From positions 1 through 32,890 of the IMG/VR virus record IMGVR_UViG_3300043567_000087: 32,890 nucleotides of DNA; one strand, given 5' to 3'. The notes under the pieces were generated by a model, which had not been told where the DNA came from, searched no databases, and saw nothing but the letters and a program-made list of their open reading frames with translations. This DNA is from a virus. Position numbers and translations under genes: made by a program. This document shows, piece after piece, positions 3,796 through 29,920 of this stretch (its first letter is position 1; the number at the start of each line of letters is the position of its first letter).

Positions 3796-6651
3796 CTAAT
3801 ATCCTTTAGCTAAATAATCAAAAGTTTTAGTAACTCCTGTGTTGCTACTGTTTTTAAATGCAACATTGAAACCATTAACAGTTTTATTTGAAATTGTAAA
3901 GAAATCTCCTGTGTTTAATCCTTGTGCTGTTATTCCTACTGCATAAGAATTTGAATAAAAAGGATTAGTAAAGACAACATTATAAGTGCCAGTCCCTGAA
4001 GTAATATCATTTCCACTAAATATTCTATCTGGCATATCTATACTTACTGACAAAGCACTAATAACTGGAGTAGAACTTAAATCAAAAGAAGTTAATACTA
4101 CTCTAAATTTATAATATCTTGCTGTGTAATCACCGACTACAAAATTTCTAAATGAAGTATAAGTTATATTGTCATTTGATAAAGCAATCTCAATATGTGC
4201 ATTACAGTTTGCAGGAGTATCACCATCAAAGCTAGAACTAGCATCATCAAAGTTTCCAGTTCTTGCATCAAACAAGTCATCTGCGTTATCAGAAGTTTGT
4301 GTAATAGAAGCAGTTACTCTTGAAGTATAAACTGCACCTATATCTATTGGAGAAGCAAATACATAATTTCCAGTAGAATATAAATCAAAAGAAGTAATAC
4401 CAGAATCAAAGAATGAAGGTGCTGAATCAAAATTGCCAGTTGCACTATCAAATAATTCTGAAGAATCTAATCTTAAAGTTCCGTCAGATACTAAGGTTTG
4501 AAATTTAGTTCCTGAGAATGTAGGTGATTCAGTTTGTGTAGCAACAGCATTAAAGTTTCCTATTGTGTTTATGTTAGTAGCAATAATTGTTTCATTAGCA
4601 GATAAGTTTCCAGATTTATCAACTGCTTTAATTAAATAAGAACCCACTCTCGCAGGTACAGTAATTGATGTAGCTGGTCTTGCAACTTTTTCAACTAAAG
4701 AAACTGAGTTAGACCAAGAAGCACCACTTGTTAATGTAGAAAATCTAATTGCGTAGTAAGCTAAATCTAAATCAGGTATTTGTGTCCAAGATAAATGAGC
4801 ATCACTTCCAATAATATTACAAGAAAAATCTTCAACATCAGCAGGTGAAGCAATACCACCAATAATAGTTCTTGATGCAGAAGTATAAGTAGAACCAACT
4901 CCTAATGTATTAAATGCTTTTACTCTTACATTATAAAGAGAACCATCTACTACGTTTAATATTCTTTGAGTTAATCCTTTTCCTTGTCCATGAATAATGT
5001 AATCGGTATCTGTACTTAGTTTGTATTCAACTTGGTAGTAATCTACAAAGCTATCTGGTGATGCACCGATTGTTACATCTAAAGCAGTAATAACTACTCC
5101 GTCTGAATATTCTATTAATTGATCGTCAAGAGTTACTGATGCTGGTGCAGATACAGAAAATGGATTTGGTAATACAGTATCATTTATTGTAGGTACTTGT
5201 GATTTAGATTCCCAAGTATAAAAATTATCTTGATGTTCTTCTAATCCAAGATTAACTGTGCTGTCAGCATTAATAGATAATGACATAACTCTAAATGGTT
5301 TGGCACTAAAACCTGCTGTATCATAAGTAGCTGTAACTATATCGCCTATTGCTAGGTTTAATCCTTCTGAAGTAATAGTTACTTCTGCCTTTAAACAATT
5401 TCTTGATCTTTTTAATATGTTCTCGCAAATTTCTTCTGCTTGATAAGGTGATGTAACATGAATCATATCAAAACTTCTTTCAAGTAAAGTATCGTTATCA
5501 GCAGATAACATTGTTGCATGACGATCTTCTACTGCTAATCCTGAGTCATCAAAAGGTGGATATGAAACTGTATCTGATTGATAATCTTTAGAAGGGTTTG
5601 TAAATGTTCCTACAACTCTATTGTATTTCTCAGATTTATTTTCTCCTTGTAATTTAACTTCACTTACAACATTGTCTTTAGTTAATAATAATTGTGATGA
5701 ACCAGTACCTTCAATAATAACTTTGTATTTACCTTGAGTGTAATTAAAGATTGCTCTCATAGGCACTAGTAATTCTCTTACGTTATCAATTACTTTTTTC
5801 TCACTATCTAATACTGCGTGTGTTTCAAATAAGTTAATGTCAGTTCCACTTGTGTAAGGTGTTACTTGTGTTTCGCAAGTATTTGCAGAAGTTTTAAATG
5901 AATCGTAATTAGTTTCAAATGCAGAATTAGGCAAACCTTTTCCGTATCTACCATTTCTTAAATAGTCTAAAAGAACTAAAGACGAGTTCTTAGAGTAAGC
6001 CCAAGTAGAAGCTGTATCTTGTCTATGTGAACCTGAACCACCTTTAGTAGAATCTAATCTTGGGTCGTATATCTTTTTGCCTTTTAATGTAACTCTAATT
6101 TCAGGTATTCCACTAAAAGCATCTTGATTCCATTTTAAACGAATAGCTAAATAAGCAAGACCAGATAACTTATGATTAGTAGTCCAATTTGCTTGTTCTT
6201 GTAATAATGAAGATGCAGATTGATTATCTAAACCATAAAATCCCTGAACTGATATTAAGCTTGTTCCATCTTTATAAAAATTAGTATCTGAACTATTTAC
6301 TGTTCTTAATGTTCCATCAGTTAATGCACCACTCCAAGTTACTAGTTTGTCATCAACATAAATTTCATCTATGCTTTCAATTCCAGCACCACCACCTTCA
6401 CAAAGAACTCCAGCTATATAAAGGTATTGATTATCAGCACCAGAACTTTCAACATAAACTCTTGTAAGTCCAACTTGTCTTTGACCATACACAACAGGTA
6501 TTGGATTGTTGTTTGCGTCTTTGTTTACTAAGATACCTTTAACTTCATCATTAGATGATTGTCTTGGTGCTTTTGGTTTTGGTGCAATTAAATAACTTAT
6601 TGCTGTTGTTATTATGGTTGTTATAATTGCTGTTACTACTGCTTCTGGCAT
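3796..6651 (-). CDS. Tail tip / central hub protein, gpJ-like host specificity protein (951 aa)
   Basis: The largest gene. Residues 5-24 are hydrophobic (VVTAIITTIITTAISYLIAP), then comes an N-terminal hub domain (VKGILVNKDANNNPIPVVYG) typical of lambda gpJ and GTA megatron-like tail proteins. A central 'phage tail 3'-type domain (about 280-480) is followed by fibronectin III-like regions (about 500-690) and C-terminal beta repeats with Asp-rich strings (LFDSATGNFDSAPSFFDSG). It should close the tail tip, interact with the receptor and form part of the DNA channel. Gene order (distal tail proteins, a small protein, hub, fibre) supports the call. Confidence 0.85.
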   Translation of the reverse strand: MPEAVVTAIITTIITTAISYLIAPKPKAPRQSSNDEVKGILVNKDANNNPIPVVYGQRQVGLTRVYVESSGADNQYLYIAGVLCEGGGAGIESIDEIYVDDKLVTWSGALTDGTLRTVNSSDTNFYKDGTSLISVQGFYGLDNQSASSLLQEQANWTTNHKLSGLAYLAIRLKWNQDAFSGIPEIRVTLKGKKIYDPRLDSTKGGSGSHRQDTASTWAYSKNSSLVLLDYLRNGRYGKGLPNSAFETNYDSFKTSANTCETQVTPYTSGTDINLFETHAVLDSEKKVIDNVRELLVPMRAIFNYTQGKYKVIIEGTGSSQLLLTKDNVVSEVKLQGENKSEKYNRVVGTFTNPSKDYQSDTVSYPPFDDSGLAVEDRHATMLSADNDTLLERSFDMIHVTSPYQAEEICENILKRSRNCLKAEVTITSEGLNLAIGDIVTATYDTAGFSAKPFRVMSLSINADSTVNLGLEEHQDNFYTWESKSQVPTINDTVLPNPFSVSAPASVTLDDQLIEYSDGVVITALDVTIGASPDSFVDYYQVEYKLSTDTDYIIHGQGKGLTQRILNVVDGSLYNVRVKAFNTLGVGSTYTSASRTIIGGIASPADVEDFSCNIIGSDAHLSWTQIPDLDLAYYAIRFSTLTSGASWSNSVSLVEKVARPATSITVPARVGSYLIKAVDKSGNLSANETIIATNINTIGNFNAVATQTESPTFSGTKFQTLVSDGTLRLDSSELFDSATGNFDSAPSFFDSGITSFDLYSTGNYVFASPIDIGAVYTSRVTASITQTSDNADDLFDARTGNFDDASSSFDGDTPANCNAHIEIALSNDNITYTSFRNFVVGDYTARYYKFRVVLTSFDLSSTPVISALSVSIDMPDRIFSGNDITSGTGTYNVVFTNPFYSNSYAVGITAQGLNTGDFFTISNKTVNGFNVAFKNSSNTGVTKTFDYLAKGY

Positions 6652-23857: not shown

Positions 23858-23879
23858 TGTTTATCCTGATTTGTTTAAC

Positions 23880-23909
23880 GTGAGCAAAAGGGAAGGCACT
23901 CTTGCTCAC
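23880..23909. promoter_or_regulatory. Inverted repeat at the leftward transcription start (candidate operator or 5' hairpin)
   Basis: GTGAGCAA (23880-23887) and TTGCTCAC (23902-23909) form an 8-bp perfect inverted repeat around 14 bp, extendable past one mismatch. It lies immediately downstream of the minus-strand -10 (23915-23920), so the transcript would begin at the right arm. It is a good repressor site for the XRE protein or a 5' mRNA-stabilising hairpin. Confidence 0.55.
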
Positions 23910-23914
23910 AATTC

Positions 23915-23955: not shown

Positions 23956-23983
23956 TTGATTATATTGATATATTTCTTATATT
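23956..23983 (+). promoter_or_regulatory. Rightward promoter for the early block
   Basis: TTGATT (23956-23961) and TATATT (23978-23983) with a 16-bp spacer, divergent from the leftward promoter. The start would be near 23990, overlapping the DnaA box at 23988-23996. A second, closer -10-like element (TATAAA, 24045-24050) lies near the first gene. The two could serve different stages. Confidence 0.5.
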
Positions 23984-23987
23984 ATCC

Positions 23988-23996
23988 TGTGAATAA
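23988..23996 (-). promoter_or_regulatory. DnaA box (TTATTCACA) in candidate origin
   Basis: The minus strand reads TTATTCACA, a perfect match to the TTATNCACA consensus. It lies next to a very AT-rich tract (about 24005-24055) in the divergent control region. With a phage DnaA-IV-like protein encoded nearby, it marks a candidate origin. One box by itself can occur by chance in AT-rich DNA; a second match at 26100-26108 (TGTGCATAA) lies in a gene. Confidence 0.45.
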
Positions 23997-24042
23997 TCAA
24001 CTTATAAGCTTGAATTTAAGATTTTTATAATTATATTAATTC

Positions 24043-24058
24043 TATATAAAAAACATAA
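24043..24058 (+). repeat. 16-bp repeated promoter-like element, copy 1
   Basis: TATATAAAAAACATAA, identical to 28739-28754. Both copies lie directly upstream of a plus-strand gene start. Here it ends nine bases before the ATG of the first early gene; TATAAA could be a -10 with a very short leader (AAGGGAAAAT) that carries the ribosome site. Confidence 0.55.
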
Positions 24059-27401: not shown

Positions 27402-28136
27402 ATGGAAGAAATCAAACTATACGAAGGCAAAGAAACATTATTCTTTGACCCAATTCAACATCAATACTTTTGGAATGATGAACAGTTGCCTAGTGCCACC
27501 GGCATAACCAAATTATTGACACCGGCAAACGTGATCGGAATGTGGTCGGCTAAGATATGTTCTGAAGAATTTAAGAAGTTAATTAGAGCAGGTGTTAGTT
27601 ATGATGAGATTGAATTAATTAAGATTGCAGATCAAATCAAAAAAGCACCAAATCAGAATATGGCAGATGCTGGGTCTGTTGGCACAAACGTACACAATTT
27701 AATTGAAGATTATATTCACAAAGGAATTACTCCTGAGATTATAAATCCTGAAATTAAAAAATCATTTGGTAAGTTTAAAGAATGGTATGACAAGCAAGAT
27801 GGTTTAGAGATTGTATTTACTGAACGTAAAGTGCTAAGTCGTATTCATAAATTTACTGGTACTCTTGATGCTATATTTAAAAACAAATCAGGAGAGCATA
27901 TAATTTATGATTGGAAGTCATCATCAGGAATAAGAGATTCTATGTTAGTGCAAATCTACCTTTATAAGATTTGTGTTAAAGAAGAACTTGGAATTGATGT
28001 CAAAAAAGGCATCATAGTTAATTGTACCAAAACTGGAAAATTAAATATTAAGGAATTTCCAATCGGAGATGCACAGGAAGAAGTGGCGATTGCCTGTCTA
28101 AAAATGTATCGCTACCTAAACAATAAGGAGAAGTAA
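27402..28136 (+). CDS. RecB-like PD-(D/E)XK exonuclease (244 aa)
   Basis: Shows the PDDEXK_1 / Cas4-RecB nuclease order: 'AGSVGTNVHNLIEDYI' (90-105, with H98), 'KFTGTLDAIF' (150-159, D156), 'IIYDWKSSSG' (167-176, D170-x-K172) and 'MLVQIYLYKI' (181-190, the RecB-type QxxxY). Ribosome site AAAGGGAAGG. It should degrade linear DNA ends to give single strands for recombination or for host DNA breakdown. It is followed by a probable single-strand-binding protein, suggesting an end-processing pair like lambda Exo/Beta or T7 gp6/gp2.5. Confidence 0.85.
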   Translation: MEEIKLYEGKETLFFDPIQHQYFWNDEQLPSATGITKLLTPANVIGMWSAKICSEEFKKLIRAGVSYDEIELIKIADQIKKAPNQNMADAGSVGTNVHNLIEDYIHKGITPEIINPEIKKSFGKFKEWYDKQDGLEIVFTERKVLSRIHKFTGTLDAIFKNKSGEHIIYDWKSSSGIRDSMLVQIYLYKICVKEELGIDVKKGIIVNCTKTGKLNIKEFPIGDAQEEVAIACLKMYRYLNNKEK

Positions 28137-28137
28137 T

Positions 28138-28647
28138 ATGAACGTACAAGGAGTAATAAAATACGTTTACGATAATAGACTTGGTAAAGATGGAACTGCT
28201 AATAAGTTTCCAAATTTCAAGTTTAAAGTAGGCGAACAAGAGATAGTTCTTTGGTCAGCAATTCTGCACCCTGCCATAGCTAAGGGAAAATCTGTTTCCG
28301 TAACTTGTGGTGCTTCAAAAAAGAATGGAAGTTTATTCGTTCTTACTAAAGAAGATAAAAGTCCAATGATACAAGAACTACCAACTAGTGCTACTGCTAA
28401 ACCAGATACTAGCTTTAATGTTGATGATTTTGAATCAGAAAACTTTAATCAAGCAGTAACAGCTATTGAAAAAGATATAGCTAGTTCTTCAGTACCAACT
28501 AAAGCATTTAATAAAGACGAATATATGTGGACTATGGCTTTATTAAAATCTGGTATTGAATCTGGTAAAATTGGTGTTACAAAGGAAGAAATTGATTTGA
28601 AAATAAAAGATTACAAGTTTTTATTTCAGATGAATTTCCATAACTAA
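28138..28647 (+). CDS. Probable OB-fold single-strand DNA-binding protein (169 aa)
   Basis: Residues 1-75 (MNVQGVIKYVYDNRLGKDGT, then 'NFKFKVGEQEIVLWSAILHP' and 'GKSVSVTCGASKKNGSLFVL') alternate strands as in an OB fold. Residues 80-125 are a Ser/Thr-rich linker and 126-169 a helical C-terminal region. The partner nuclease gene lies one base upstream. No acidic SSB tail is present. I call it SSB-like from fold pattern and neighbour; a different OB-fold role is possible. Confidence 0.55.
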   Translation: MNVQGVIKYVYDNRLGKDGTANKFPNFKFKVGEQEIVLWSAILHPAIAKGKSVSVTCGASKKNGSLFVLTKEDKSPMIQELPTSATAKPDTSFNVDDFESENFNQAVTAIEKDIASSSVPTKAFNKDEYMWTMALLKSGIESGKIGVTKEEIDLKIKDYKFLFQMNFHN

Positions 28648-28653
28648 GATTCT

Positions 28654-28714
28654 TATGGCGAGGGTTTTTGATTTAACGATCACACATAATCCCTTTATGT
28701 TTCCCCTCGCCATA
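28654..28714 (+). other. Large stem-loop element between the SSB-like gene and the next gene
   Basis: TATGGCGAGGG (28654-28664) and CCCTCGCCATA (28704-28714) are perfect 11-bp inverted repeats. Their 39-base loop contains a second hairpin (ACATAA-TCCCT-TTATGT, 28684-28700). The element is GC-richer than its surroundings and non-coding in my reading. It could be a structured RNA, a terminator, an origin or a DNA-packaging site. A promoter begins four bases after it. Confidence 0.6.
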
Positions 28715-28717
28715 TCC

Positions 28718-28746
28718 TTGCAATTTAATGAAATATTATATATAAA
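28718..28746 (+). promoter_or_regulatory. Promoter downstream of the stem-loop
   Basis: TTGCAA (28718-28723) and TATAAA (28741-28746) at exactly 17 bp spacing. Predicted start 28752-28754, which is at or next to the ATG at 28754. This would make a nearly leaderless transcript. Confidence 0.55.
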
Positions 28747-28754
28747 AAACATAA
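28739..28754 (+). repeat. 16-bp repeated promoter-like element, copy 2
   Basis: TATATAAAAAACATAA, identical to 24043-24058. It contains the -10 hexamer of the promoter at 28718-28746, and its last base is the A of the start codon. Confidence 0.55.
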
Positions 28755-28960
28755 TGAAGGTTGTTAGAGAAAAGCTAATTGAGTGTAGCATTGTAGTTAA
28801 GGAACTCTTTGAAAACACAGAAGATGCTCTAACAGAAAACAAGGAAGGTAAGATTATTTCCGTGAACATAATCAATACTAAGTTCATCAGAAATAATATT
28901 AAAATAGCTGATGGAGAAAATGAAAACTCAAGTTCAGAACCTAAGAGACAGACATTATAG
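28754..28960 (+). CDS. Hypothetical protein, possibly leaderless (68 aa)
   Basis: MKVVREKLIECSIVVKELFE then 'NTEDALTENKEGKIISVNII' and a Ser/Glu-rich tail (GENENSSSEPKRQTL). The in-frame ATG at 28655 is rejected because it lies in the stem of the hairpin element and gives a non-homogeneous N-terminus. There is no Shine-Dalgarno before 28754, but the promoter start coincides with the ATG. The reading frame overlaps the next gene by 41 bases. Function unknown. Confidence 0.5.
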   Translation: MKVVREKLIECSIVVKELFENTEDALTENKEGKIISVNIINTKFIRNNIKIADGENENSSSEPKRQTL

Positions 28961-29102: not shown

Positions 29103-29441
29103 ATGCACGATCTCGCTCTAAAAAACCCTGACCAAATAAAACAAGAACTAGATTCTATATCAGAACAAATGTCAGAAGCATTATATACTTTTAGACGTTG
29201 CGAAGAATTTAAGAAAATAACATTCAGTCAAATAACTTTAACTAAGAAATTAGAAAAGAATTGTTCGGTAGCTGAAGCAGAAAAGTGGGCTTATTCTGAT
29301 AAAGATTACGCAACAATAATAGAAGGTTTATTAGTTGCAGAAAAAAACTATTCTATTTTAAAAGGTAAATATGCTAACTTACAAAGCTGGGTTGATCTTT
29401 ATAGATCATGGCTTGTAACTCAAAGAGATTTGAGTAGATGA
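29103..29441 (+). CDS. Conserved phage coiled-coil protein (112 aa)
   Basis: MHDLALKNPDQIKQELDSIS with long helices, 'CSVAEAEKWAYSDKDYATII' (54-73), 'EGLLVAEKNYSILKGKYANL' (74-93), then a 'WVDLYRSWLVTQRDLSR' end. This 'EAE..AY.S..Y....EGL..A' and 'WR....T' type recurs in phages next to small nucleases. Function unknown; the partner is likely the nuclease gene that starts within its last codon (ATGA). Ribosome site AAGGAAGGT. Confidence 0.7.
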   Translation: MHDLALKNPDQIKQELDSISEQMSEALYTFRRCEEFKKITFSQITLTKKLEKNCSVAEAEKWAYSDKDYATIIEGLLVAEKNYSILKGKYANLQSWVDLYRSWLVTQRDLSR

Positions 29442-29920
29442 AAATAATCCAACCAAAAGGAACATTAAATGAATTGGGATATAAAGACCGAGTTGAAAAC
29501 TATATTGACTATGCCGAACAAAGATTTGAAGAATATTGCAAAACTAAATCTTTTCATTATAAAAAGTTGCTTTTTAATGATGATGCTGATTTTGGTAATT
29601 CCCCTATCCCTTATTTTCATAAACTTGGGATTCTTAGTGCTTTACCTGATTACTTTGTTTACTCCAAAGAAACCGAACAACGTAAAAGCCAGTTCTTCGT
29701 GGAAGTCAAAGCTTCCAACAAACTTAAACTAAAAGATTTAAAGAAATATATTACATTCGCACAAATGTTCTGCGATAGTAGATACACTCAATATACAATT
29801 TGTTTCGCCTTCAAAGATGGCTTGAAATTCAAATCAGTAGATCAAATATTAAGGTTGTTGCCACAGTCAAAGATTCAAACTTGGAATGATGGTATTGAAT
29901 ATTATTTATTGCCGATCTAA
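29438..29920 (+). CDS. PD-(D/E)XK nuclease, possible resolvase or end-processing enzyme (160 aa)
   Basis: Shows 'LGILSALPDYFVYSKE' (63-78) and 'SQFFVEVKASNKLKLKDLKK' (84-103): P70-D71 ... E89-x-K91, the PD-(D/E)XK core with the usual strand-helix spacing. It then has 'YITFAQMFCDSRYTQYTICF'. Related small nucleases in phages act as VRR-NUC or resolvase-type enzymes that process junctions or tails. It is the last gene of the early block. It converges with a minus-strand gene and the two stop codons overlap. Confidence 0.75.
   Translation: MKIIQPKGTLNELGYKDRVENYIDYAEQRFEEYCKTKSFHYKKLLFNDDADFGNSPIPYFHKLGILSALPDYFVYSKETEQRKSQFFVEVKASNKLKLKDLKKYITFAQMFCDSRYTQYTICFAFKDGLKFKSVDQILRLLPQSKIQTWNDGIEYYLLPI

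Follow-up and report, generated by a model that had tools for sequence, protein, structure and literature searches.

Evidence for a conserved structured RNA directly behind the ssb-like gene in a group of uncultured phages

The locus described here raises the question of what a perfect, G+C-rich inverted repeat does in the gap between an SSB-like gene (28138–28647) and the ATG at position 28754 that starts the next open reading frame (ORF). The window, that is, the whole stretch of DNA that was analyzed, comprises positions 1 to 32,890 of the 32.9-kb virus record IMGVR_UViG_3300043567_000087, and its genes include those for the major capsid protein, the portal, the large terminase, tail proteins, and an endolysin. 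The terminase is most similar to those of the lake phage DSL-LC06 and of the Pelagibacter phages HTVC026P, 202P, 111P, and 112P (53–55% identity), and this similarity, together with the A+T-rich composition, suggests a SAR11/LD12-like host. A loose-pattern scan of genome contigs yielded matches scattered over unrelated phyla, which were judged to be due to chance, and no host was found in this way. The genes from about 24.07 to 29.92 kb point rightward, and the PD-(D/E)XK exonuclease gene and the SSB-like gene are among them. The features around the gap are as follows:

27402–28136, + strand: PD-(D/E)XK exonuclease gene (Cas4/lambda-exo-like), upstream of the ssb-like gene; PHROG 298 exonuclease, E = 8e-28; Pfam PDDEXK_1
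28138–28647, + strand: SSB-like gene, 169 aa, stop codon at 28645–28647; N-terminal beta-barrel resembling ssDNA-binding OB folds
28654–28664, + strand: 5' arm of the outer stem, TATGGCGAGGG (inverted repeat I10; covariation)
28669–28682, + strand: inner hairpin A, TGATT-TAAC-GATCA (MFE fold)
28684–28700, + strand: inner hairpin B, ACATAA-TCCCT-TTATGT, with CCC in the loop (UCCCU) (MFE fold)
28704–28714, + strand: 3' arm of the outer stem, CCCTCGCCATA (inverted repeat; covariation)
28718–28723, + strand: −35-like hexamer TTGCAA, separated from the stem by 3 nt; all tails retain TTG
28741–28746, + strand: −10-like hexamer TATAAA, spacer of 17
28754–28960, + strand: next ORF (MKVVREKLIEC..., 68 aa), lacking a Shine-Dalgarno sequence; its start codon follows the −10-like site at a distance of 7 nt

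Pfam and PHROG searches with the SSB-like protein gave no matches. Its AlphaFold model is of moderate confidence (mean pLDDT of 67.5; 71–83 for residues 1–80), and the best Foldseek matches of this model in the PDB were mostly OB-fold nucleic-acid-binding proteins (Sulfolobus SSB, RPA32, and hSSB1), with weak E-values. The ssb gene's own leader contains an ordinary AAGGAG site, and a conserved structure in this leader was looked for among the relatives and not found. A hairpin ahead of ssb was considered as a structure of the same type as the element but lies within the exonuclease coding sequence and is not kept. In one relative (L018:2934-3003), a match to DUF2815 RNA (29.1 bits, below the gathering score of 41.2) coincides exactly with the 5' leader of its ssb-like gene, and it was not seen in the other relatives. 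Like the element, DUF2815 RNA (Rfam RF03084) is a candidate structured RNA ahead of a phage gene; however, the L018 match lies in a different place and is not conserved among the relatives. DNA and protein searches of known phage records gave no match to ssb or to the element.

The outer stem begins 6 bases 3' of the stop codon of the ssb-like gene and consists of 11 bp with 100% complementarity, its arms being separated by 39 nt, so that the perfect stem, the 39-base loop, and the noncoding gap are exactly as described in the initial annotation. The nested hairpin reported there is present as well, but the loop harbors two hairpins rather than one: in the MFE fold, the 11-bp helix encloses the small hairpins A and B in a three-way junction. 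RNA folding of the region from 28640 to 28760, which had been proposed as a check, gave −24.3 kcal/mol (z = −2.7), and 0 of 200 shuffled sequences were as low. The post-ssb stem is not a chance repeat: one perfect 11-bp inverted repeat (at least 6 G+C, loop of 3–60) was observed, compared with a mean of 0.015 per dinucleotide-shuffled window (n = 200). Further copies were looked for elsewhere in the genome and none was found, so that the element is single copy. Rfam release 15 gave no match in the window at the gathering score, and the best permissive hits were at chance level (E of 0.15–0.97). A coding role of the stem, as part of an ORF of the window that begins at 28655, was rejected because the homology of the next protein starts only at ATG 28754, the homologues aligning from M[TKS]V[IV]REKL; in addition, relatives such as L099 do not preserve the frame.

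The relatives were gathered from IMG/VR with the ssb-like protein, its alignment, the next ORF, and a DNA pattern. The element was present at the ssb stop, once, in 73 of the 73 related contigs long enough to show the site, and the 11 related contigs without it are cut off before or inside the site. The element occurs in 33 distinct sequences, which comprise 14 distinct arm pairs, and every stem is fully paired; unpaired arm substitutions, named in the initial annotation as the evidence that would count against the element, were found in 0 of the 33. The arm pairs (TATGGCGAGGG, TATGGCGAAGG, TATGGCGGGAA, TATGGCAGGTGG, TATGCAAGGGG, TAGTGGCCAG, TAGTGGCAAAAT, TAGTGGCCAAAT, TAGTGGTCAAAT, TAAGCGAGAGG, and variants) form outer helices of 10–14 bp. 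The extraction patterns fixed the outermost stem bases, so that the invariance of these bases is partly by construction. The searches based on ssb and on the next ORF were free of this pattern bias, and the TAGTGG and TAAGCG classes came from them and were first read by eye. In an alignment of 20 sequences, changes on both sides were found at 7 of the 11 stem pairs, and 32 cells were doubly changed, compared with 9.2 in shuffles (0 of 500 shuffles as good); the cells share changes by kinship and are not independent, and a better guide is the number of distinct stems, which fall into at least six clearly different classes. All cells (100%) were paired in the true register versus 34–58% in slid controls. 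These compensatory changes, beyond both the shuffled and the slid controls, strongly support a conserved structured RNA, one of the possibilities raised by the initial annotation, and the element is a clear example of such an RNA that Rfam does not contain, from a widespread group of uncultured phages.

The interior of the element is more variable, with outer loops of about 21–57 nt across the classes. In most long-loop homologues, an inner 5' hairpin (A) is predicted as well, but it is missing where the loop is short: the TAGTGG and TAAGCG classes have only a simple open loop of about 21–24 nt. The stem of hairpin B varies with the pairing kept (ACATAA/TTATGT, ACTTAA/TTAAGT, TCATAA/TTATGA, TCAAAAA/TTTTTGA, ACAAA/TTTGT, and GCATAA with G-U), and the CCC of its loop is kept in every class except one (L320). 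Pairing of this CCC with the 5' arm or with codons of the next gene was considered and fails, by inspection, in several classes. An extra outer helix is possible in the TATGCAAGG class (L142, L145, and L358), between the ssb stop region (GGTAACTAG) and the TAGTTGC that surrounds the −35-like motif; it was not seen in other classes.

The wobble pairs bear on the strand. Four wobbles occur in the outer stem (L104, L124, L337, and, at a terminal pair, L338) and others in hairpin B (L096 group, L138); all of them read as G-U on the + strand, whereas on the − strand they would be A-C. The events are few, about six, and the pairing score allowed G-U in the + sense only, but in no case did an A-C pair shorten an outer stem. 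The restriction of G-U wobbles to the + strand therefore indicates that the structure works as an RNA on the strand of the ssb message. Alternatively, the element could act as DNA, as a replication origin, a primosome or cruciform site, or a protein operator; an origin and a primosome site had both been considered in the initial annotation, and a perfect inverted repeat beside an A/T-rich stretch within a recombination/ssDNA-binding module is in line with such roles. However, the arm sequences turn over freely while the pairing is kept, the wobbles are compatible only with a sense RNA, and the turning points of the GC skew are not at the element but at about 24.0 and 30 kb, at the changes of gene direction, with DnaA-box-like sites near 23.97 kb. 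The element thus appears to be a sense-strand RNA structure and not a DNA origin; DNA roles are disfavored, and we regard them as very improbable. The DnaA-box-like sequences (TTATCCACA / TTATTCACA) are located at about 23965–24000 in the divergent early control region and were also seen in relatives (e.g., L005, L051, and L276). This divergent region, where the GC skew turns, is a candidate origin.

A G+C-rich stem behind a stop codon could also be an intrinsic terminator, in which case a U-run and a loop of about 3–8 nt would be expected. Yet no class has a U-run after the 3' arm (in the window, the sequence there is TCCTTGCAAT), the loops of about 21–57 nt are much longer, and a terminator scan does not report the element. 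The earlier view that this is no simple terminator is thereby supported, and termination of this kind is extremely improbable.

Instead of a U-run, a promoter-like pattern follows the helix. In 27 of 27 complete tails, TTG[CAT][AT][AT] starts 1–7 bases past the stem and is followed, after 16–18 bases, by TATA; a TATA at this spacing was found in 17% of shuffled tails, and the 27 tails are related and worth perhaps six to eight independent cases. The tails begin with TCC, TTCAG, TCCC, or CCA, then TTG, and the −35-like forms drift around this fixed TTG core (TTGCAA, TTGCAT, TTGTAA, TTGATT, and TTGAAA). The new promoter postulated in the initial annotation is thus borne out as a sequence pattern. 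The conserved protein encoded downstream has 63–77 residues, and in most relatives its ORF lacks a Shine-Dalgarno sequence. Its start codon is usually located 3–7 bases past the −10-like site, and messages from such a promoter would therefore be nearly leaderless. One subfamily has TATAATG, in which the −10-like TATAAT runs into the ATG; a transcript from that promoter would lose the start codon, and for this subfamily the promoter reading is weak, or the promoter may serve later genes. The model of the next protein (28754–28960) is one long two-stranded beta ribbon (pLDDT of 80, and about 90 or more for residues 2–18 and 33–52), for which no PDB fold match, Pfam hit, or PHROG hit was found. 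At the end of the early operon, the ORF at 29438–29917 has weak similarity, below the cut-off, to the N-terminal domain of TnsA-like endonucleases (PF08722). The sequence TATATAAAAAACATAA, shared by positions 24043 and 28740, was considered as a common promoter; relatives lack this repeat, and the early promoter seems to lie just upstream of the copy at 24043, both of which make this reading weak.

From the helix, its fixed site, and the promoter-like pattern, we infer that the element may be a cis-acting intercistronic RNA at a transcription-unit boundary that sets and protects the 3' end of the exonuclease-ssb message. This is our best explanation, although we hold it tentatively and put its chance at somewhat less than even. 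The outer helix would form the 3' untranslated, intercistronic part of the early exonuclease-ssb message. RNA polymerase would read on, or would be released by Rho downstream, or the RNA would be cut; 3'-to-5' exonucleases would then trim the RNA back to the helix and halt there, and the message for the exonuclease and the SSB-like protein would persist. The next unit would initiate from its own sigma70-type promoter right behind the helix, often nearly leaderless. As regards a regulator of the SSB-like message, also suggested in the initial annotation, we prefer such a role in 3' end formation or stability, with an SSB-bound operator as a rival.

A stable helix 6 nt past a stop codon without a U-run is what an exonuclease-protected 3' stem-loop should look like. 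In E. coli, Rho-terminated messages are trimmed to a stem-loop that constitutes the stable 3' end (PMC9927376; Dar and Sorek cited there), and this precedent would explain a strong helix without a U-run after the stop codon. The element resembles these E. coli ends in both respects and in the separate promoter-like signal downstream; it differs in its very highly conserved position, in its inner hairpins with the loop CCC, and in the −35-like motif immediately behind the helix. The covariation of the stem, the fixed place at the ssb stop (73/73), the + strand wobbles, and the promoter pattern (27/27) count in favor of the 3'-end reading. Also counted in its favor is an unrelated-looking hairpin in the same place in the marine pelagiphage HTVC026P (L089, MN698240), where 9 bp (TACAGGGTC/GACCCTGTA) at 5091–5114 directly follow the stop of an ssb-like gene, again without a U-run and ahead of the next gene. 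In contrast to the element, this hairpin has a 6-nt loop, no promoter-like signal was seen behind it, and the next gene has a Shine-Dalgarno-like site; tblastn detected no relation between the ssb proteins of HTVC026P and the window. Three observations count against the 3'-end reading. First, the TATAATG subfamily weakens its promoter part. Second, HTVC111P, HTVC112P, and HTVC202P are without such a gap after ssb. Third, a passive end-cap needs neither the inner hairpins nor the loop CCC, and these unexplained features therefore leave room for a binding partner.

One such partner could be the SSB-like protein itself, which would silence the next gene by binding first to the fold and then to the unpaired, A/U-rich sequence that leads to the AUG. 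The SSB-like gene adjoins the element, and the folded part is followed by an A/U-rich, unpaired start region without a Shine-Dalgarno sequence. The gene 32 (gp32) operator of T4 and RB69 has the same layout, namely a folded 5' part and a less structured, U/A-rich 3' part that contains the start site, in the neighborhood of an SSB gene (PMC535899). However, that operator acts in the ssb leader, whereas the element is located after ssb and ahead of another gene. Moreover, a pseudoknot is not evident, and the leader of ssb is the ordinary one described above. A translational operator is conceivable but unlikely.

Sites for RNase III and RNase E are familiar features of the gaps between phage genes, and the intercistronic position of a structured helix with inner hairpins would suit a processing site of the RNase III type, or of RNase E beside the helix, that splits ssb from the downstream message. 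Indeed, the gene 32 mRNA of T4 is cut by RNase E (PMC3014915). For RNase III, which calls for about two turns, a helix of 10–14 bp is short, and the simple open loops of the TAGTGG and TAAGCG classes also speak against this possibility, which we consider unlikely. In practice, it overlaps with the 3'-end explanation.

A third possibility is an RNA whose target is RNA polymerase or the expression of downstream genes, that is, a put-like antiterminator, an attenuator, or a protein-bound riboregulator that reads the loop CCC. The put RNA of phage HK022 acts near the early promoters, on early phage transcription (PMC9378689). Like the element, it is a cis RNA with hairpins in a phage early operon, whereas the element is not promoter-proximal, is single copy, and has a different fold. 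Hairpin B does present its CCC, conserved apart from L320, on a co-varying stem. The element nevertheless lies far from the early promoter, with about 4.6 kb of the operon ahead of it, and it has no Rfam match; we consider action on the polymerase or on downstream expression unlikely as well.

A second hairpin was found in the divergent region at 23.88 kb:

23875–23912, leftward strand: second covarying hairpin (E2), invariant loop UGCCUUCC, window stem GTGAGCAAGAG

It sits a few bases past a promoter-like pattern (TTGC[CT]A-N17-TGATA(C)-like), and is likely to lie at the 5' end of the leftward, structural-gene transcript. E2 was also found in L005, L051, L059, L068, L072, L078, and L279, all with the invariant loop UGCCUUCC, while the stems of 9–14 bp change completely between relatives (GTGGGTAAG, GTGGTGTAAG, GTGTGGTAG, GTGGTTAGTAG, GTGGTGTGTA, GTGGTATATTTTGG). 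On the leftward strand, its wobbles read as G-U; wobbles of this kind were the only ones admitted in the final search, but the first search did not require pairing. The second hairpin lends support to the view that RNA hairpins are placed at the boundaries of transcription units in this phage family, and it may be the more interesting RNA of the two. Conceivably, the post-ssb element (E1, loop CCC) and E2 (loop UGCCUUCC), with their fixed loops on freely changing stems, are recognized by a phage or host factor that governs the switching or timing of transcription-unit expression, a proposal to which we assign a low probability. If true, E1 and E2 would constitute a new RNA-based regulatory pair in SAR11-type phages.

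The phages that carry the element are uncultured, come from lakes and estuaries, and are related to SAR11 phages by their terminase; to our knowledge, almost nothing is known about transcription control in such phages. The element divides the early operon at ssb and gives concrete positions for transcript ends and starts. Together, the post-ssb element and the second hairpin provide two anchors for finding such controls in metatranscriptomes.
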